This document shows positions 2,580-11,866 of a stretch of DNA of 64,000 nucleotides, piece after piece (positions within the stretch are counted from its first letter, which is position 1; the number at the start of each line of letters is the position of its first letter). A model generated the notes under the pieces. That model did no database searches, was not told the origin of the DNA, and worked only from the letters and a program-made list of their open reading frames with translations. Source of the stretch: an uncultured Gammaproteobacteria bacterium. GTDB taxonomy: Bacteria > Pseudomonadota > Gammaproteobacteria > Pseudomonadales > Pseudohongiellaceae. Made by a program: the position numbers and the translations under genes. Location of the stretch: contig CAJXRP010000004.1 in assembly GCA_913060495.1 (NCBI GenBank), forward strand, positions 62,001 through 126,000, written 5' to 3'.

Positions 2580-4646
2580 GTGAACGTGAGTCAGCGAAAG
2601 ATATTGGTAACTAGTGCTTTGCCTTATGCAAATGGAGGCATCCATCTTGGGCACCTCATGGAAGCCATTCAGACAGATATTTGGGTTCGCTTGCAGAAAC
2701 TTCGAGGTAACGACTGTGTCTATGTCTGTGCCGATGATGCTCATGGTACGGCGATCATGCTCAGCGCTGAACAGCAGGGAATAACACCAGAACAGCTAAT
2801 CGAAAACGTAAGCAATGAACACCAGAGAGATTTCGCAGACTTCTTGATTCAATTCGACAACTATCATTCGACCCACTCGGAAGAAAACCGAGAGTTCTCC
2901 GAGCACATCTATAAAATCCTCGACAAGAACGGACACATAAACAGAAGAAGCATTACCCAGCTATTCGACCCAGAGAAGAAACTATTTCTGGCCGACAGAT
3001 ATGTCACAGGCACCTGCCCAAAATGTAAGGCGGAAAATCAGTATGGAGACAACTGCGAGGCTTGCGGCTCCACCTACAGCCCTTCCGAGCTAATTGATCC
3101 ACGCTCCTCGATCTCTGGCGCGACGCCAATTGAAAAAGATTCCGAACACTTCTTCTTCGCCTTGCCCGAATTTCGCGACATGTTGTCAGAATGGACTCGC
3201 AGCGGAACCCTGCAAGACGCAGTGGCTAATAAACTCAGAGAGTGGCTAGACACCGAGCTACAAGAATGGGACATCAGTCGTGATGCCCCCTACTTCGGAT
3301 TTGAAATTCCCGGTGCTCCAGGTAAATATTTCTATGTCTGGCTAGACGCACCGATAGGCTACATGGCGAGTTTTAAAAACCTTTGCGATCGTACCGATTA
3401 CAACTTCGATGACTACTGGCAGGAAGGCCAGGATTCGGAACTGTACCATTTCATTGGTAAAGACATTATCAACTTCCACACACTATTCTGGCCCGCGATG
3501 CTGACCAGTGCTGGATATCGAACACCTTCTGCAGTCCATGTGCACGGTTTTCTTACCGTGGATGGCACAAAGATGTCCAAGTCACGGGGCACGTTTATTA
3601 ATGCTCGTACCTACCTAGACCATCTAAACCCTGAATATTTACGCTATTTTCTCGCCGCAAAGCTATCTAACGGCATCGACGATCTCGATCTAAATCTTGA
3701 GGATTTTGCACAGAGAGTCAATTCAGACCTAGTTGGCAAGGTAGTAAACATAGCGAGTCGCTGTGCCGGCTTTATCGGCAAAGGCTTCGATGGATACCTA
3801 GCAGAAAATCCAGACAACCCAGACTTACTCGCTGAAATTCAGGCTGCCAAAAACGAAATCGGTGATTATTTCGAGTCTCGAGAATACAGCAAGGCGATTC
3901 GCCTAATCATGGCTCTCGCCGACAAGGCCAACCAGTACATCAATGACAAAGAGCCTTGGGTTATTGCTAAAACTGACAAGCAATCACCAGAGCTTCAAGC
4001 AATCTGCAGCAGCGGCATAAACGCATTTCGCTTGCTCATGTGCTATCTAAAACCGGTACTACCCAACATGGCAGCAGATGCAGAACAGTTTCTAGCTATC
4101 GAGCCACTAAGGTGGGATGACGCCGATAGTCTTTTACTTGGCCATAAGATCAATAAATTTAAACCACTGATGACACGCGTGGAAGCAGACAAGGTACAAG
4201 CCATGGTAGACGCTACCCAGAAAGAGTTCGAAATACAGGCACAATCTAAAGCGAAGTCCGAAACAAAGAAGCAGCCGCAAGAAAATATTACCGGTTTCGA
4301 GGATGAGATCGATTTCAACGATTTCGCCAAGGTTGATTTGCGAGTCGCTAAGATCACCAGTGCCGAACATGTCGAAGGCGCCGATAAATTACTGAAGCTA
4401 GTATTGGATTTGGGCAAAGATAAAAATGAGGAAGACATTACGCGAACCGTTTTTTCCGGTATCAAGTCAGCGTACGACCCAGAAAAACTAGTCGGCATGC
4501 TGACTGTCGTCGTGGCAAATCTCAAACCCCGCAAAATGAAGTTCGGCATGTCTGAAGGAATGATTCTCGCCGCCGGACCTGGTGGAAAAGAAATCTGGTT
4601 ATTCGAGCCCCATGCCGGCGCTCAGCCAGGGATGCGCATCACTTAG
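2580..4646 (+). CDS. metG: Methionyl-tRNA synthetase
   Basis: Charges tRNA-Met. At 688 residues it is a full-length type-1 MetRS. The Rossmann catalytic domain opens with the HIGH variant H22-L-G-H25, the zinc knuckle carries CPKC at about 146-149 and CEAC shortly after, and KMSKS is at residues 331-335. The anticodon-binding helical domain follows, and a C-terminal Trbp111/EMAP tRNA-binding domain starts at about residue 575 ([21 protein letters not shown]). The start is GTG; either 2580 or the in-frame GTG at 2586 fits the weak GGTAGGTAG ribosome binding site. A stem-loop follows the stop codon (separate entry). The identification is certain. Confidence 0.97.
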
Positions 4647-4713
4647 CAGTTGCTGCTCTAAATCTGCAGATCGAGACTTAGACCCAAGCTCTGGATCTGT
4701 AGCAAGCAGCTGC
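4646..4713 (+). other. Imperfect hairpin right after metG
   Basis: An outer stem pairs GCAGTTGCT (4646-4654) with AGCAGCTGC (4705-4713), and an inner stem pairs CTGCAGATC (4664-4672) with GATCTGTAG (4694-4702), each with one G-U pair. No U-run follows, so it could be an RNA-processing or 3'-protection element, or a Rho-linked terminator between metG and the protease gene. Only the pairing is seen; the role is inferred. Confidence 0.45.
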
Positions 4714-4896
4714 AAGATTACCAGCCTATGCGGGCCCCCTCTACTGCAGGTTCTGTGCCCAGAGCAAATCACGATGCCGGGCAACGCGACTGGCGCTGTA
4801 GTCATTAACATATTAAGCTTCAGCACTCGATCGCGTGTTGGCGTGCAGCACCCTGCCGCTACGCAAATCATATTTCCAAACCAGAGGTCTTCTGCT

Positions 4897-6408
4897 ATGC
4901 GTTTTCCTAACAGCTTTTTTGGCAAACCGCCCCGCATGTTCTTACTAGCTCTATCATTATTGTTCTTAGCCAGTAACGGCGCAGTAGCTCAGAATAGCGA
5001 AATACGAGCAATCGAAGACTCTGTAATTAAAATCTACACCACGCAATCTGCTCCCGATTATTTCACACCTTGGCGCCTGCTCTCACCGAGACAAAGCAGC
5101 GGTTCAGGCTCGGTGATTTCGGGCAATCAAATTTTGACGAATGCACATGTCGTAGCAAATGCGAGTTACGTACAGGCACAAAAGCACAATGACCCGCAAC
5201 GCTATCTAGCAAGGGTGACTTTCATTTCCCATGAAGCCGATCTGGCTCTAATTACAGTCGACGAACCCGGTTTTTTCAGCGATTTAAAAGCGCTAAGCAT
5301 TGGCGATCTACCCGAGCCACTGCAGGAAGTCTCGGTGTATGGATATCCAATTGGCGGGAAATCTCTAAGCATTACCAAAGGCATTCTCTCCCGCGTTGAA
5401 CAACAAGTGTATGCCCATGCAGGCGCCTATCTACTTGCCGGCCAAATAGATGCTGCCATTAATCCAGGTAATAGTGGTGGGCCGGTCATAGTCGACCAGC
5501 AGATCGTTGGCGTAGTCATGCAAGCCAACAGTGGCGGTCGCGCAGAAAACCTTGGCTACTTCGTCCCCCCCAGTATGATCCGACACGTACTAACCGACAG
5601 TGAAGATGGCATCCACGACGGCTTCCCCGATTTGGGCTTTCGTACACAAACTCTCGATAGCCCCTCGGCAAAGAAAGCCTATGGCTTAAGTGATGAACAG
5701 AACGGTGTAATAGTCATTAAGGTCTTCGATGACGCCCCTGCACAAGGCGTTCTGCAGAAGAATGATGTCATTCTCCAAATCGATGATTTCGATATTGCCG
5801 AGGACGGCAGCATTCGACTATCAGAGGATGTTCTTACCGACTACAAGCACGCGATCAATTTACACCACGTAGGGGACTCGGTTGATATCACCTATGTCCG
5901 CAAAGGGAAAGTTCGAACAGCCAGTCTCGACGCACGTAAGGCTCTGGACAGCTACAGTTTAGTTACAGGAGAACAATTCGATAAGATCCCCGAATACTAT
6001 ATTTATGGAGGAATTCTGTTCGTCCCACTCAATATGAACCTCATCAAACGTTGGGGCAATGACTGGAGCCGCACTGCACCGGTAAGCCTCTTACAGGCTC
6101 GTAACGAGTGGAGCTCTCCCGAGCGGCGACAATTGGTTGTGGCTCTTCAAGTCATGGCCGCCGATGTTAACCTTGGTTATCACGACTGGCGCAACTGGAT
6201 CGTGGAGGTCGTCAATGACGAGCCCGTAAAAGACTTCGCTCACTTCGCAGACCTTATTAAGAACAATACAAACGACAACATCGTAATGGAAAACAAGAAT
6301 GGCTATCAGCTAGTGATAAACCACGAACAAGCCCTAGAGAGTGAAGCCAGCATCCTTGCTCGCTACCAGATACCTGCTGGCCGCTCGGCCAACCTTCTCG
6401 AGGACTAA
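4897..6408 (+). CDS. Secreted trypsin-like (DegP/HtrA-type) serine protease with PDZ domain
   Basis: Probable periplasmic serine protease of the Deg family, 503 residues. A signal peptide with a hydrophobic core at about residues 14-25 ends in AVA-Q near residue 31. The catalytic triad is visible as H84 (TNAHVV), D115 (ADLALI) and S193 (NPGNSGGPV). A PDZ domain follows at about 245-340 (GVIVIKVFDDAPAQGVLQKND), and the C-terminal third (about 345-503) is the extended, poorly characterised module seen in plant-type Deg proteases rather than the second PDZ of DegP. The start is ATG 4897, with AGAGG just upstream; the open frame runs back into metG, but that extension is not secretory. Substrates are unknown. 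It stands alone before the rnf operon. Confidence 0.85.
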   Translation: MRFPNSFFGKPPRMFLLALSLLFLASNGAVAQNSEIRAIEDSVIKIYTTQSAPDYFTPWRLLSPRQSSGSGSVISGNQILTNAHVVANASYVQAQKHNDPQRYLARVTFISHEADLALITVDEPGFFSDLKALSIGDLPEPLQEVSVYGYPIGGKSLSITKGILSRVEQQVYAHAGAYLLAGQIDAAINPGNSGGPVIVDQQIVGVVMQANSGGRAENLGYFVPPSMIRHVLTDSEDGIHDGFPDLGFRTQTLDSPSAKKAYGLSDEQNGVIVIKVFDDAPAQGVLQKNDVILQIDDFDIAEDGSIRLSEDVLTDYKHAINLHHVGDSVDITYVRKGKVRTASLDARKALDSYSLVTGEQFDKIPEYYIYGGILFVPLNMNLIKRWGNDWSRTAPVSLLQARNEWSSPERRQLVVALQVMAADVNLGYHDWRNWIVEVVNDEPVKDFAHFADLIKNNTNDNIVMENKNGYQLVINHEQALESEASILARYQIPAGRSANLLED

Positions 6409-6566
6409 TAGCCGCAGAGTGGAATCACCGGCTGTGTCGGGCGCGCACTTCGACTCAGCTGTTCTGCTCTTGCGGGCATGATAGTATTCGCCAACTCGAT
6501 TTCACTGCGCCCCTGCGGGCTCACTCAAGTAGCCGCTTAGCGTAACCGTTGGAGAAGCATTGCTTC

Positions 6567-7142
6567 GTGACAAACTATCTCAGCATCATTGTTGCCGCCG
6601 CTCTCGTCAATAATCTACTATTGATTCAGCTTTTCGGCGTCTCCTCACTCTTCTATTCGACTAAAAGATTGCCTCAGGCAGTTGAATTTGCGCTATTTAA
6701 CTTCGTAGTTCTCTTTCTCTCTTGCGTTGTTAACCTGCTTATTTATCGTTTCTTTTTAATCCCACTGCATCTCGAATTTTTTAGACTTGTGGCTTTTGTT
6801 GCGACAAGCGCCCTATTAACCACCTTTTTCCTACAGATAATCACCAAGCGTTTTCCTTATTCCATTAGGCAGCAGGGCTTACTGCTGTTTCTTACTGGCG
6901 GCAATAGTGCGGTACTGGGGTCAACCCTACTAAGCAGCAGCAGCGTACTCGCTCTTAGTGAGAGCATCACCTCCAGCTTTGGTGCTGCATTAGGTTATTC
7001 CCTGATGATTATAGGATTCGCCGCTCTGCGCATCCGCCTAGAATTTGCAGATGTCCCTGCGCCATTTCGAGGCAGCGCTATCCAACTCATCACTGCCGGC
7101 TTGGTAGCAATCAGCCTACTTGGCTTTGCCGGATTAACTTAA
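6567..7142 (+). CDS. rnfA: Rnf/Rsx complex membrane subunit A, lacking the cluster cysteines
   Basis: Six-helix inner-membrane subunit of the Rnf ion-translocating electron transport complex; 191 residues against 193 in E. coli RsxA, aligning without gaps. The start is GTG 6567 because MTNYL matches the family start MTDYL and GGAG lies at 6551-6554; a TTG at 6549 is also in frame. In characterised Rnf/Nqr complexes this subunit gives two cysteines to a [2Fe-2S] cluster shared with RnfE. Here both aligned positions are serine: S26 (codon 6642-6644, in FGVSS where E. coli has LGLCP) and S114 (codon 6906-6908, GNSAVLG for TNCAVLG). The C-terminal ADVPAPFRGSAI motif is intact. First gene of rnfABCDE-nth. 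Confidence 0.9.
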   Translation: MTNYLSIIVAAALVNNLLLIQLFGVSSLFYSTKRLPQAVEFALFNFVVLFLSCVVNLLIYRFFLIPLHLEFFRLVAFVATSALLTTFFLQIITKRFPYSIRQQGLLLFLTGGNSAVLGSTLLSSSSVLALSESITSSFGAALGYSLMIIGFAALRIRLEFADVPAPFRGSAIQLITAGLVAISLLGFAGLT

Positions 7143-7145
7143 AAA

Positions 7146-7733
7146 ATGCTTCCCCTGATCTCACACTGGCTCACACAGCTCATCATTGGCGCAGGCCTCT
7201 TGCTGATCTGTGTATATGCGCTGCAAAAAATTTACCAATACGTACATCAGCAGCTAGGGATACAGAAATCTCTCGTGACACGTATCAATCGTGCGCTGCC
7301 GCAGACTCAATGTGGGCAGTGCGGTCATCCTGGCTGCCTTCCCTATGCTCGGGCCATAAGTTTGGGCGAAGCCAGCAATAAATGCCCACCCGGAGGCCTA
7401 GAGACAATTCTCGAACTCGCCGAATTGCTGAATGAGCCGGTGCGCGGCCTCGATCCAGCTCATGGACAATTTAGAGACTTCAGTGTGGCGGTCATTAGAG
7501 AAGATGAATGCATCGGTTGCACAAAGTGCATTCAAGCTTGCCCTGTTGATGCAATCCTAGGCGGCCCCAAGCTAATGCATACCGTAATCGAATCTGAATG
7601 CACAGGCTGCGATCTATGCGTCGAACCCTGTCCTGTTGATTGCATCGATATGGCCAACCACATAGCACCATCACTCTCCCAAACTACCCCGCTCTATTTC
7701 GCTACGCACAACTCACTTGGAGTTAGCACGTGA
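7146..7733 (+). CDS. rnfB: Rnf/Rsx complex ferredoxin-like subunit B
   Basis: Cytoplasm-facing iron-sulfur subunit that passes electrons from RnfC toward the membrane. It has 195 residues (E. coli RsxB 192): one N-terminal membrane anchor (about 9-28), a four-cysteine domain C56-x2-C59-x4-C64-x15-C80, and two 4Fe-4S ferredoxin motifs at C122/C125/C128/C132 and C152/C155/C158/C162. All cluster ligands are present, in contrast to RnfA and RnfE. The gene starts 3 bp after rnfA and overlaps rnfC by 4 bp, so translation is coupled. Confidence 0.95.
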
Positions 7734-9364
7734 GCGCGCTTAAACAATTCGCTGCGAAATATTTTGGCGAAGATCCAGTCTTTGCTAGGCGAACTTTTGG
7801 TGGTATCCAGCCCCCGACATTTAAGGAGCACTCTTTACGCTCGCGAATAATGTCGTCGCCGATTCCCCCACAGCTAACTATTCCGATTGGCCCGGGAAAT
7901 AGTGGAGAGATCTCTCTCCTAGTAGGCATAGGAGAGCGTGTTCTTAAATACCAGAAATTGGCCGTTATGACTTTTTACGCGGAAGGTCGTTCTGAAGTGC
8001 CTGTGCATGCCCCTACTTCAGGCGTGATAATTTCGATCGAAGATTCGGTTGTTGCAGACCACTCGCAACAGCAACAACGCTGTATAACTCTTGCGTCCGA
8101 CGGACATGATGAGGCAAAAAAAATCGAAGGGCAGCCAGATTATGTGCGACTAGGCAGCGCAGGTATAGTTTCGAAAATTCGTGACGCGGGAATTATTGGC
8201 ATGGGAGGCGCTGGCTTTCCAACTGCAGACAAACTCGCTGGTTGCGGCGATGCTGGCCCCGAATTTCTCATCATAAACGCCGCGGAGTGCGAGCCTTACA
8301 TTACTGCAGATGAAGCGCTCCTCAGGGAACGAGCAGACAGTGTTGTGATGGGTGCAAAAATACTGAAACAAGCCAGTGCAGCTCGACGCTGTATATTCGC
8401 TATAGAAGACACCAAACCCGACGCAATAGCCGCCCTTCAGCAAGCATTGAAAGAGCAATTAAGCATCGCGGCATTCTGCGAACTTGTGCTTATACCCAGC
8501 AAATATCCAGCGGGCTCTGAAAGACAACTCATCCAATGTGTCACGGGCATTGAGGTAACCACAGGTCTGCATCCTACTGAGAATGGCGTATTGATGCACA
8601 ACGTTGGCACAGCATATGCCGTCTATGAAGCAATTGTTAACGGCAAGCCCTGCATCAGTCGATTCACTACACTGTGTGGTCAGGCGTTAAAGACACCGAA
8701 GAATTTTGAGGTATTAATCGGCACCGCGACTGACTACCTATTCGAACTTTGCGGCATCGAGCCTACCAATAAACAGAAGAGCATCCTTGGTGGCTCACTG
8801 ATGGGGAATGAGCTTACTAGTGATAAAGCCGTAATATGTAAAACGACAAACTGCCTCATTGCAGCAAGCGCAAATGAAATTCCAGCCTCAGCGCCAGAAA
8901 AGGCCTGCATACGTTGTGGGTTCTGTGCAGACGCCTGCCCCTCCAGACTCCTGCCACAGCAACTCTTAGCGTTCAGCAGAACATCAGATACTACGCAACT
9001 ACTCGAACATGGATTGTTTGACTGCATAGATTGCGGCGCCTGCGACTACGTCTGCCCAAGCCATATACCACTAGTTAGCACTTTCAAAGAGAGCAAGACG
9101 CTCATAGAGAACCATGAACAGAGTTTGCTACGCAGCGATTACTGGCAACATAGATTCCAATTTCGCCAATACCGAATAAAGAAAGAGAAGGATCAGGTAT
9201 TGTCGAGAAAGAAAGAAGTACCTGAACAGCCTGTACAGATAGCCGAGCAAGCACCTAACACACAAAATAACGAAGCAGATATCATCTCCAAAGAGCAAGC
9301 TAGCCGAGACATCGCCGCAGCAGTGGCGCGAGTCAAGGCACGCAGAGACGAGAAAAACAAATGA
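7730..9364 (+). CDS. rnfC: Rnf/Rsx complex NADH-side subunit C
   Basis: Peripheral subunit that oxidises NADH (or ferredoxin in other species) and holds FMN and two 4Fe-4S clusters. It has 544 residues, shorter than E. coli RsxC, whose extra length is a repeat-rich tail. The glycine-rich nucleotide loop [13 protein letters not shown] and the [10 protein letters not shown] motif are intact, as are the cluster ligands C393/C396/C399/C403 and C432/C435/C438/C442. The last 80 residues are charged and low in complexity. The GTG start at 7730 overlaps the rnfB stop (GTGA). It retains everything expected for electron input. Confidence 0.95.
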
Positions 9365-10515
9365 GCAGCTTAAAGGCCGACACGCCCTTTCAACATACTG
9401 GAAGAAATGTTGCCCAACTCATGCAAACGCTCTTGTATGCGCTTTTGCCTGGAATCGCTGCCTCGCTCTGGTTTTTTGGCTTCGGAATTCTAATCAATAT
9501 AGTTATCGCTATTACATTCGCAGTGCTTGCCGAATCCGCGATGCTGCGGTTACGGAATCGGGATATACGCGCACATTTATCTGACAGAAGCGCACTTGTT
9601 ACTGCGCTCCTTTTTGCGATCGCCATTCCTCCCGGTTCGCCTTGGTGGCTTGTGGCGCTTGGAATCCTGTTCTCAATAGTAATTGCAAAGCATCTATATG
9701 GTGGTCTTGGACAGAACCCATTCAACCCGGCGATGTGCGGCTATGCAATGTTGCTACTAGCCTTCCCGATAGAGATGACTGGCTGGCATATTCCAAACGA
9801 AGTCATCAACGGACCGCTGACCGCCGACGCTCTAGGCATACCAATAACAACTGCAGAGCGAGAATTTTTAAGCCCACTGGGCTGGAACGGATTCAAGCAG
9901 GCACTACTACTCGCCTTCCCATTCGCCGCCTCAAGTGCCACCGACGTAAAGGAATTTGTCGATGGCCTAGCGCTGGCTACTCCCCTCATCGAATTCAAGA
10001 TGGCCGGGAAAAGCGCACTTTTAGCCGCTAGAGAATCTGGCGCCTCCCTGTTCGCCAGAGACTCAGAAACGGCATGGGAGATTATCAATATCAGCTATTT
10101 ACTCGGCGGACTATTCTTACTCTATAGAAAGGTCATCAGTTGGCACATACCACTGGCAATCATCTCTACTATCTTCCTCCTTGCCGCTACATTCTACGCC
10201 CCTGGCAGTGTTGCAATTTACGGCACGCCCTATCTTCATCTATTTGGAAGCGCCACGATGATAGGTGCATTCTTCATAGCCACGGACCCGGTCAGCGCCG
10301 CCACCACTAGGCCAGGCAAGCTTGTTTACGGCATCATAATTGGAGCATCCATCTACTCCATTAGAGTATGGGGCAGCTATCTTGATTCTATTGCTTTCGC
10401 AGTATTGTTTGGCAATTTTTGCGCCCCTTTTCTAGACCACTATTGCAGGCCTAGAATATTTGGCCATGGATTACGCGGCAAGCCTCGTCCTACCGATGGA
10501 ACAATAAAACCATGA
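9361..10515 (+). CDS. rnfD: Rnf/Rsx complex membrane subunit D
   Basis: Polytopic NqrB/RnfD-family membrane subunit, 384 residues (E. coli about 352). It has the conserved KHLYGGLGQNPFNPAM motif, the C-terminal ATMIGAFFIATDPVSAATT motif and many hydrophobic helices. In characterised RnfD, FMN is bound covalently to a threonine in a D-x-x-S/T-x-A-T context. Here the aligned stretch is D201-G-L-A-L-A-T207 (9961-9981): the threonine is kept but the S/T three residues before it is alanine. Flavinylation is therefore uncertain rather than excluded. ATGA overlaps join it to rnfC and rnfE. The rnfG gene normally found next is missing. Confidence 0.93.
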   Translation: MSSLKADTPFQHTGRNVAQLMQTLLYALLPGIAASLWFFGFGILINIVIAITFAVLAESAMLRLRNRDIRAHLSDRSALVTALLFAIAIPPGSPWWLVALGILFSIVIAKHLYGGLGQNPFNPAMCGYAMLLLAFPIEMTGWHIPNEVINGPLTADALGIPITTAEREFLSPLGWNGFKQALLLAFPFAASSATDVKEFVDGLALATPLIEFKMAGKSALLAARESGASLFARDSETAWEIINISYLLGGLFLLYRKVISWHIPLAIISTIFLLAATFYAPGSVAIYGTPYLHLFGSATMIGAFFIATDPVSAATTRPGKLVYGIIIGASIYSIRVWGSYLDSIAFAVLFGNFCAPFLDHYCRPRIFGHGLRGKPRPTDGTIKP

Positions 10516-11231
10516 ATGAGCTGGAACTACAGGCAGGCAGGGGCGGCATGATATTGGAGAACAATCCTGTGCTGGTACAGCTACTCGGCCTGAGTCCTGT
10601 GCTGGGGGTTTCTACTACAATTACCAGTGGGGCTGGGCTCGGTGTCGCAACATTTTTTGTCTGCGTCTTTTCCTGTCTCACTGTCTCGCTGTTGAAGAAC
10701 TCTATCCCCCATAAATGGCGCCTTGTTTGGTATATGTTAATACTCGCCGGCTACACCACCATCGTCGAAACAATTGGCCAACTTTACTTCTACCCTCTCT
10801 ATCTAAAACTTGGCGTTTACCTCCCCCTGATTTGCTGCAACGTGGCAATCTTGATTCGCATGGAGACAGTCGCTGCGAAATCCAACTGGCCTGCGGCCAC
10901 TGTGGATGCCACAAAAAATGGCCTTGGCATTCTAATCGCGCTTTTCTTATTCGCAGCGGTTCGGGAAGCATTGGTTAGCGGGACCTTCTTCGCTAACTGG
11001 CAGCTGTTGCTTCCCGCTAGCAACGAGATCGCCACCGCAGCAAGCAACCTAGATGACACGCGCCTATTTCAATTCGCCAACACTCAGGCAGGCGCCTTCA
11101 TACTGCTAGGCATGCTAATCGCGCTATTCAATTCACTAACACAGACAACGAACAGCGCAGCGGCCGCTGAAGCAGAAGAGGTTGTCCCAGCCAAGAGAGC
11201 TCGAGTCACAGGTAGGCTAAGCAAAGAATGA
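10512..11231 (+). CDS. rnfE: Rnf/Rsx complex membrane subunit E, lacking the canonical cluster cysteines
   Basis: Six-helix RnfE/NqrD-family subunit, 239 residues. It aligns to E. coli RsxE through ENNPVLVQLLGLSPVLGVS and the VREAL region. In characterised complexes two cysteines here complete the intramembrane [2Fe-2S] site. The first (LGLCP in E. coli) is S28 (codon 10593-10595). The second (TNC) aligns to V111 (codon 10842-10844), although C108 and C109 lie two and three residues before it and might substitute. A hydrophilic C-terminal tail follows the last helix. It overlaps rnfD and nth by 4 bp each, so rnfG is absent by clean junction rather than by decay. Confidence 0.9.
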   Translation: MNELELQAGRGGMILENNPVLVQLLGLSPVLGVSTTITSGAGLGVATFFVCVFSCLTVSLLKNSIPHKWRLVWYMLILAGYTTIVETIGQLYFYPLYLKLGVYLPLICCNVAILIRMETVAAKSNWPAATVDATKNGLGILIALFLFAAVREALVSGTFFANWQLLLPASNEIATAASNLDDTRLFQFANTQAGAFILLGMLIALFNSLTQTTNSAAAAEAEEVVPAKRARVTGRLSKE

Positions 11232-11866
11232 ACAAAGAAAAAAGAACAGAAATTTTCACGCGCCTTAGACGCGAAAACCCAGAACCGAAAACCGAACTAG
11301 AATACAGCAGCACTTTCGAGCTGTTGATATCGGTAATCCTATCGGCACAAGCGACTGACATCAGCGTCAACAAGGCAACTAAAAAGCTCTACGCCGTTGC
11401 CAACACCCCCGAGGCAATATACGCCCTAGGAGTGGCCGGACTAAAAATGTATATAAAGACGATAGGCCTGTTTAATACTAAAGCCGTCAATGTCATCAAG
11501 ACCTGCGAGATCTTAATTCAAGAACACGATTCGATAGTGCCTGACAAAAGAGAGCTGCTGGAAGCGCTTCCAGGGGTTGGCAGAAAGACTGCCAATGTAG
11601 TGCTAAACACAGCATTTCGCCAGATCGCTATGGCTGTAGACACACATATATTTAGGATATCGAATCGCACTGGAATAGCGCCGGGAAAGAACGTACTAGA
11701 AGTAGAGCGCCGGCTGATAAAACTAGTGCCGGAAGAATTTCTACTCGACGCGCATCACTGGCTAATTCTACATGGACGCTACGTCTGTCTGGCACGCAAG
11801 CCCCGTTGCGGAGCTTGCGTTATCGAAGACCTTTGCGAGTTTCGCAAAAAGGTCTACGCCGAATAG
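11228..11866 (+). CDS. nth: Endonuclease III (DNA glycosylase/AP lyase)
   Basis: Removes oxidised pyrimidines and cleaves abasic sites in base excision repair. It has 212 residues and almost the exact E. coli numbering: helix-hairpin-helix LPGVGRKTANVVLN with catalytic K120, catalytic D138 (AVDTHIF), and a 4Fe-4S loop of C187, C194, C197 and C203. It is the last gene of the rnf operon and overlaps rnfE by 4 bp, the arrangement known from E. coli and Pseudomonas. Only 27 bp separate it from the convergent argG. Confidence 0.97.
   Translation: MNKEKRTEIFTRLRRENPEPKTELEYSSTFELLISVILSAQATDISVNKATKKLYAVANTPEAIYALGVAGLKMYIKTIGLFNTKAVNVIKTCEILIQEHDSIVPDKRELLEALPGVGRKTANVVLNTAFRQIAMAVDTHIFRISNRTGIAPGKNVLEVERRLIKLVPEEFLLDAHHWLILHGRYVCLARKPRCGACVIEDLCEFRKKVYAE

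Follow-up and report, generated by a model that had tools for sequence, protein, structure and literature searches.

In Rnf complexes (RnfABCDGE; A. vinelandii 8ahx, A. woodii 9eri, C. tetanomorphum 7zc6), the electron path set out in the sections of PMC12174285 consulted starts at RnfB and leads in turn through a [2Fe-2S] cluster held in the membrane by RnfA and RnfE, the flavin mononucleotide (FMN) of RnfG, the FMN of RnfD and riboflavin to RnfC; an excerpt of PMC11889175 adds that reduction of the cluster favours Na+ binding in Rnf. Here we analyse a related locus in a window of 64,000 nucleotides from an uncultured member of the Pseudohongiellaceae (assembly GCA_913060495.1, contig CAJXRP010000004.1, positions 62,001 to 126,000), where an rnfA-rnfB-rnfC-rnfD-rnfE-nth operon encodes RnfA and RnfE without the Cys ligands of that cluster. 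The altered complex is kept under purifying selection, and the loss of the Cys is one step in a reduction seen across the family, whose end point is often RnfB alone, or just its two-cluster ferredoxin domain, beside the endonuclease III gene nth. We placed the window genome (G000) in a genus coded g1 within a family coded f1; the same clade has records named Pseudohongiella or Pseudohongiellaceae.

When RnfA was aligned to Rnf and NQR chains of known structure (7zc6_A, 8ahx_A, 9eri_A and 7xk3_E; expectation values (E) 2.9e-24 to 4.5e-18), the columns of the ligand Cys fell on S26 and S114, and for RnfE (9eri_E, 8ahx_E, 7zc6_E and 7xk3_D; E 7.5e-22 to 4.7e-19) they fell on S28 and V111. An original prediction, made from the sequence of the window alone, had named these four residues and the nearby C108 and C109 of RnfE, and its codon coordinates proved exact. 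Foldseek searches with AlphaFold models returned Rnf/NQR A and E chains as the best folds, with probability 1.00 to 9eri_E, 8ahx_E and 8ahx_A and template-modelling scores on the query of 0.68, 0.74 and 0.66, respectively; the models are modest (predicted local distance difference test 64.7 for RnfA and 71.3 for RnfE) and were used for fold identity only.

Scoring the four positions in relatives, as the prediction had proposed, revealed that the Cys-less state is genus-wide. We took 32 g1 genomes with rnfA, a set that includes G007 and G500, which have no RnfD match, and not all of the 41 RnfD-bearing g1 genomes. In RnfA, all 32 have Ser at the first position and 31 have it at the second, where the remaining genome has Gly; in RnfE, the first is Ser in 28/28 and the second V, I, F, M or L in 27/27. 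All four Cys are present in 17/17 outgroup loci from other families, and both RnfA Cys in 25/25 further order-level loci (from the best 30 loci among 390 genomes, 29 of them read). Neither chance nor assembly error accounts for the ligand loss, since 32/32 genomes of the genus lack both RnfA Cys and the outgroups bear them. Across 79 named loci, a set biased towards Cys-less loci by an RnfA query built from Cys-less rows, both RnfA Cys occur in all 46 of L103-L148 and do not both occur in L070-L100, L101 and L102. A second genus, g23, has likewise lost the ligands and fills the positions with different residues: E or D at the first and S at the second in RnfA, and A at the first and G or A at the second in RnfE. 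L101 (PMCP01000144.1, fen_1219; 4193-7872) represents a different Cys-poor Rnf core, ordered metG-rnfA-rnfD-rnfG-rnfE-nth without rnfB and rnfC, with Asp/Ser in RnfA, Ser/Cys in RnfE and a canonical RnfG carrying ETPGLGD. Another locus, L069 (G054), has rnfA with two Cys, rnfB, rnfC and rnfD, and no rnfG or rnfE was found within its stretch.

The ratio of nonsynonymous to synonymous substitutions (dN/dS; Nei-Gojobori, 9 to 11 close pairs, each frame spanning from one stop codon to the next and so a few codons too long) was 0.06-0.38 for rnfA, 0.15-0.36 for rnfC, 0.08-0.24 for rnfD and 0.17-0.44 for rnfE; rnfB gave 0.11-0.61, the 0.61 pair including an upstream stretch, and nth, taken for comparison, 0.04-0.23. 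All rnf values lie below 1, which indicates purifying selection and not the relaxed selection (dN/dS near 1) that the prediction had named as its counter-case. The replacement residues are themselves conserved: only 2 of the 20 Ser columns of RnfA are invariant over 31 genomes and only 1 of the 13 of RnfE over 27, and all three are former ligand positions (counted without L102; the rnfE frame has 15 Ser columns, two of which lie before the ATG). Random placement of the invariant columns would give this in about 1 in 2470 cases (1/190 x 1/13), a crude figure as the rows are related. The Ser codons are one base from a Cys codon in 26/32, 31/31 and 27/28 genomes at the three positions, and no Cys was seen there. 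The new RnfE Cys before Asn110 is present in 25/27; of the other two genomes, one has Ala and one Ser.

The cytoplasmic part is complete. All five rnf frames of the window are open, and the 12 Fe-S (iron-sulfur) Cys of RnfB and the eight of RnfC are present, as had been predicted; across the clade they are complete in 33/33 RnfB rows (one ending with its contig) and 32/32 RnfC rows. The flavin Thr of RnfD (ATPL), a putative site of covalent FMN, is kept in the g1 rows seen, and the RnfC loop for NADH (reduced nicotinamide adenine dinucleotide) is conserved in all g1 rows seen except L102. Na+-path residues of RnfA are lost: T110 is Thr in 25/25 canonical rows and E88 is Glu in 22/25, each in 0/36 clade rows. 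RnfE R67 is kept in 27/32 clade rows and E115 mostly. In L102 (CAJXVC010000001.1, 10148-11809; G404), RnfC has no GGAGFP NADH/FMN loop, and its eight Fe-S Cys and RnfB are present; NADH oxidation thus appears to be droppable before RnfB. RnfC Cys342 (window gene 7730-9364) is found in 32/32 clade rows and is absent from L056, the one outgroup compared.

RnfG, which the original prediction took to be missing, is absent from the operon only. No RnfG frame occurs in any g1 operon stretch read, but a whole-genome FMN_bind search, which rules out the absence of rnfG, found a diverged copy on contig 14 of the window genome: the gene was relocated, not lost, and all six Rnf subunits are encoded, A-E in the operon and RnfG unlinked. 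The copy is a 229-residue open frame that scores 111.7 bits against a model from 16 outgroup RnfG (E 5.3e-35 over a small frame set), matches 8rb9_G at 2.5e-10 and reaches 87.8 bits with the RsxG model, below the cut-off of 178. It directly follows nuoN and is followed by a methyltransferase-like frame and gpsA (nuoN and gpsA confirmed); in g23, rnfG lies between sthA and gpsA. The 13 g1 copies aligned, two decayed ones excluded, have neither ETPGLGD nor VKKDGG, and the flavin Thr is Ser in 13/13 (DQFVGAS; DQFVDAS in G023). According to an excerpt of PMC12052999, ApbE flavinylates Ser too, less well than Thr.

The relocated rnfG co-occurs with the operon. Among 84 g1 genomes, RnfD and RnfG are both present in 29, RnfD only in 12, RnfG only in 4 and neither in 39 (Fisher p 5.8e-9, uncorrected for kinship), and among 15 g23 genomes RnfG accompanies RnfD in 6/6 and is found without it in 0/9. 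RnfG was scored present at E 1e-35 or better, which counts the broken copies of G007 and G016 and that of G003, with a TAG stop inside the match; short fragments in G475, G477, G481 and G496 were counted absent. G404 was counted RnfD-bearing (its locus, L102, was read) and G474 was not (weak match, other contig); with G474 included the counts would be 30/12/3/39. The broken rnfG copies of G007 and G016 go with broken operons (rnfA plus an rnfB stub, and an rnfA remnant, respectively). Distant RnfD and RnfG-like matches share a contig in G474 (C71), G476 (C52) and G478 (C193), which looks like a further Rnf copy, either additional to the Cys-less one or in its place. In Lachnospiraceae/Eubacterium loci among L122-L148, the rnfD frames are mostly about 1.6-1.9 kb with no separate rnfG by model, and are perhaps rnfD-rnfG fusions.

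A further component varies with the ligands. RseC (PF04246) was over the cut-off in 14/137 family genomes, all in g24, g25 and g147, and the window genome has none; a fifteenth match (G012) is sub-threshold and has four stops inside. In these 137-genome tables, absence from an incomplete genome such as G425 (73%) or G429 (77%) is weak evidence. All four Cys are present in 14/14 RseC-bearing genomes, and at least one ligand is lost in 49/49 RseC-less genomes scorable for RnfA or RnfE (32 g1, 10 g23 and 7 g24, four of the ten g23 genomes being so eroded that the ligand columns are unsure). The states alternate within g24, where G424, with RseC and four Cys, has as its sister G425, which lacks RseC and has C/S in RnfA; a tree of 25 rows gives four changes each for RseC and the four-Cys state, and an independent-pairs test on well supported branches found 2/2 pairs concordant, too few for significance. 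This covariation suggests RseC as a candidate maturation factor for the RnfA/E cluster. In the portions of the literature consulted, E. coli RseC has a Cys motif able to bind an Fe-S cluster and is required for SoxR reduction (PMC11729352), deletion in C. ljungdahlii abolishes autotrophy and led to RseC being interpreted as a regulator (PMC9124969), and the NQR cluster appears to depend on NqrM (PMC12174285). Counting against a role of RseC in cluster assembly, V. cholerae and A. woodii are said in the same partial accounts to assemble Rnf in the absence of RseC (PMC11729352), rseC is absent in 7/30 Rnf acetogens (PMC9124969), and our control search of Methanosarcina acetivorans found no RseC despite an Rnf-Nqr match. 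The SoxR-like client proposed in the original prediction is not supported: SoxR is over the cut-off in 13/137 family genomes, and the window genome (best match 55.7 bits, cut-off 116.9) is not among them and also has no RseC.

The metG-nth locus shows graded dismantling, read from 48 loci of 47 genomes (46 of f1 plus G275), most of them chosen by RnfB match. Full A-B-C-D-G-E operons occur with four Cys (G423, G427) and with partial Cys loss (G279, G299 and G430, all listed as 100% complete), and A-B-D-G-E without C in G424 and the g25 and g147 genomes read. The Cys-less A-B-C-D-E form is that of g1 and of G080 and G443 in g23. G218, G441 and G444 have an eroded A, B, the Fe-S part of C, a short D and an E stub, which in G218 still overlaps nth; G024, G027, G353 and G466 have B, the Fe-S part of C and one or more frames before nth. 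In 14 genomes (G501, G019, G030, G239, G259, G145, G196, G438, G318, G447, G451, G458, G460 and G449) B alone lies directly before nth, and in G022, G480, G508, G018 and G036 that place is taken by a frame of 137-176 residues with the eight ferredoxin Cys only. On a tree of metG, argG and nth, whose deep inter-genus forks are uncertain, several reductions fall at separate points: G030, for example, is nested among g1 rows that bear the operon, and the G018-G501 and G024-G027 groups lie apart from each other. Among the loci of this series, L232, L267 and L276-L278 (g25, g147) are four-Cys operons without rnfC between rnfB and rnfD, L232 having other genes there. The frames between the RnfC Fe-S remnant and nth in L242-L245 (G024, G027, G353, G466) reach about 410 residues, and one in G353 matches the RnfD model at 15 bits.

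RnfB is the Rnf part most often kept in the family, though not universal. A strong RnfB match (E 1e-20 or better) was found in 113/137 family genomes and a full RnfD in 69, with four more shortened (hand count); RnfB occurs without full RnfD in 46/137, RnfD without strong RnfB in two (G473, G504) and neither in 22.

The cluster ligands, RnfA T110 and E88, the usual surroundings of the RnfG flavin and RseC are gone, and RnfC and RnfB are complete; the simplest reading is that electrons may pass from NADH through RnfC to RnfB without ion pumping. The Rnf-derived complex of this operon would no longer build the intramembrane [2Fe-2S] cluster, and the canonical U-shaped ferredoxin-NAD path that drives ion pumping could then not run. 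Electrons from NADH would reach the FMN and two [4Fe-4S] clusters of RnfC and then the three [4Fe-4S] clusters of RnfB on the cytoplasmic side, with RnfA, RnfD, RnfE and the relocated RnfG as a scaffold in the membrane, and would be delivered to RnfB-dependent cytoplasmic clients without ion coupling. Judged from sequence, this non-pumping NADH-RnfC-RnfB module on a wire-less scaffold stands about evenly between right and wrong; that the client is Nth or another Fe-S protein is a guess from gene order. The predicted coherent, selected loss of the transmembrane path thus holds in part: the A/E ligands are gone, RnfG lacks ETPGLGD and VKKDGG and has Ser for Thr, RseC is gone, the cytoplasmic clusters are intact and selection is purifying, but the absence of rnfG on which it also leaned falls away. 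Replacement by NQR as a simple cause was rejected: the window genome has a separate NQR elsewhere, over curated cut-offs, and G034 (95% complete) has a Cys-less operon with no NQR seen, so NQR is no requirement.

Several observations weigh against the NADH-RnfC-RnfB reading. The flavin Thr of RnfD is not needed by a purely cytoplasmic RnfC-RnfB step and is kept, the relocated RnfG keeps a possible flavin Ser, and the Ser of the former ligand positions are invariant and not drifting, so the membrane site should still do something. The relocated rnfG is absent in 12/41 RnfD-bearing g1 genomes and the RnfC NADH loop in L102, and the passages on Rnf available to us contain no description of direct RnfC-to-RnfB transfer. 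As to RnfB, 24/137 genomes, including 9 that are at least 90% complete, have no strong match, only a broken piece of RnfB accompanies RnfD in G473, and in loci chosen by RnfB match its presence is given by construction. The kept RnfD Thr and the invariant Ser are unexplained by this reading and keep two rivals alive.

One of these holds that the membrane site still binds a cofactor or ion through rebuilt ligands, the three invariant Ser (two of RnfA, one of RnfE) and RnfE Cys109, as an O-ligated cluster, another metal or Na+. It would explain why the sole invariant Ser columns are the former ligand positions, why Cys109 stands in 25/27 and why codons mostly one base from Cys have yielded none; the fourth position is hydrophobic in 27/27, however, Cys109 gives way to Ala and to Ser in one genome each, RseC is gone and other genera fill the site with unrelated residues, and we consider it improbable. 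The other rival keeps half of the path: electrons from NADH would pass through RnfC and then the riboflavin and FMN of RnfD, the acceptor being periplasmic or a quinone and RnfB, RnfA and RnfE being structural parts. The conserved RnfC NADH loop (L102 excepted) and Fe-S Cys, the RnfD ATPL Thr in the g1 rows seen and two ApbE genes in the window genome are in line with it, but RnfB without full RnfD in 46 genomes is set against RnfD without strong RnfB in two, and in G218, G441 and G444 the RnfD that accompanies RnfB and the RnfC Fe-S domain is short and has no Thr motif; it ranks next, as an unlikely account.

The membrane subunits might also be a decaying relic that stays in frame chiefly because rnfB and nth benefit from the operon and its translational coupling. 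The decayed operons of G007 and G016, the overlapping rnfE stub of G218 and repeated loss down to rnfB-nth all fit, yet dN/dS values of 0.06-0.38 for rnfA and 0.08-0.24 for rnfD and the invariant Ser do not, and coupling to nth cannot explain why an unlinked rnfG is kept with the operon; we regard this as the least probable of the readings. An extended form of the NADH-RnfC-RnfB reading makes RseC a dedicated assembly factor of the RnfA/E [2Fe-2S] cluster, a counterpart of NqrM lost together with the ligands, after which the membrane domain would have been rebuilt on a three-Ser site to give a non-pumping NADH:RnfB reductase and later a lone ferredoxin with endonuclease III. As a whole we hold this tentatively, and on the doubtful side.

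The operon forms one tight run on the + strand, 6549-11866 (Table 1), with metG and an HtrA-like protease gene on its 5' side and a putative argG frame (named by eye) past nth on the opposite strand. RnfB, RnfC and RnfD score above the curated cut-offs of their NCBIfam subfamilies. RnfA (129.2 of 240 and 119.8 of 229.3 bits) and RnfE (178.6 of 184 and 145.1 of 213.4 bits) stay below both of theirs, and both pass the broad Pfam PF02508 cut-off. NQR models are far below cut-off for RnfA, RnfC, RnfD and RnfE, with no NQR-type subunit in the operon.

Table 1. Features of the rnf-nth operon, in window coordinates.
Feature	Position	Strand	Remarks
rnfA, Cys-less (S26, S114)	6567..7142	+	open frame from TTG 6549 or GTG 6567; residues numbered from the GTG; TIGR01943 119.8 bits, cut-off 229.3
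rnfA codon TCC, Ser26, first RnfA cluster-ligand position	6642..6644	+	Ser in 32/32 genus genomes scored
rnfA codon AGT, Ser114, second RnfA cluster-ligand position	6906..6908	+	Ser 31/32, Gly in G404
rnfB: N-terminal hydrophobic helix, one 4-Cys domain, two [4Fe-4S] ferredoxin motifs	7146..7733	+	TIGR01944 211.9 bits, cut-off 68.7
rnfC: NADH/FMN domain (GMGGAGFP), two [4Fe-4S] motifs	7730..9364	+	PRK05035 536.2 bits, cut-off 345
rnfD: membrane flavin subunit, flavin Thr motif LALATPL present	9361..10515	+	TIGR01946 358.8 bits, cut-off 207.05
rnfD codon ACT, Thr207, candidate FMN-linked Thr	9979..9981	+	
rnfE, ligand positions Cys-less (S28, V111), ATG 10512	10512..11231	+	new C109 one residue before Asn110
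rnfE codon AGT, Ser28, first RnfE cluster-ligand position	10593..10595	+	Ser in 28/28
rnfE Cys108 codon	10833..10835	+	
rnfE codon TGC, Cys109, new Cys	10836..10838	+	25/27 genus genomes
rnfE codon GTG, Val111, second RnfE cluster-ligand position	10842..10844	+	V/I/F/M/L in 27/27
nth (endonuclease III)	11228..11866	+	four-base overlap with rnfE end; adjoins rnfB in relatives' reduced loci

The locus amounts to a natural experiment in which the wire has been taken out of an ancient redox pump and the remainder kept under selection. It sets what RnfB does apart from what the pump does, makes the role of RseC a testable question and offers, at one locus, successive grades between a six-subunit pump and a ferredoxin beside a DNA-repair gene. 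At the level of titles and abstract openings in a partial collection, no such complex is described, and the whole words Pseudohongiella and Rnf occur together in none of its papers.

With the described Rnf complexes the locus shares the gene order A-B-C-D-(G)-E before nth, the fold of A and E, the Fe-S Cys of B and C, the NADH domain of C and the flavin Thr of D; unlike them, the window has no A/E cluster ligands, no RnfA T110/E88 Na+-path residues and no RseC, and its rnfG is unlinked and without ETPGLGD. The SoxR-reducing Rsx system of E. coli (RsxABCDGE with RseC and ApbE) belongs to the same gene family, and nth presumably follows the rsx operon as it does in the window, but the window genome has neither RseC nor a SoxR over the family cut-off. 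RnfB-type ferredoxins (NCBIfam PRK06991 and PRK08764), which we take to be solitary or beside nth, have an Fe-S domain like that of RnfB, and the end state of the family series resembles them; the window RnfB scores below both cut-offs (205.3 of 281 and 171.3 of 220 bits) and, unlike them, retains its N-terminal helix and partner subunits. Na+-NQR has a homologous core and, in the part of PMC4014512 consulted, is interpreted as having derived from Rnf, its NqrA being an RnfC that has lost the cofactors. It keeps the A/E-type cluster and has lost RnfB, whereas the complex of the window has lost the ligands and keeps RnfB, the opposite route.

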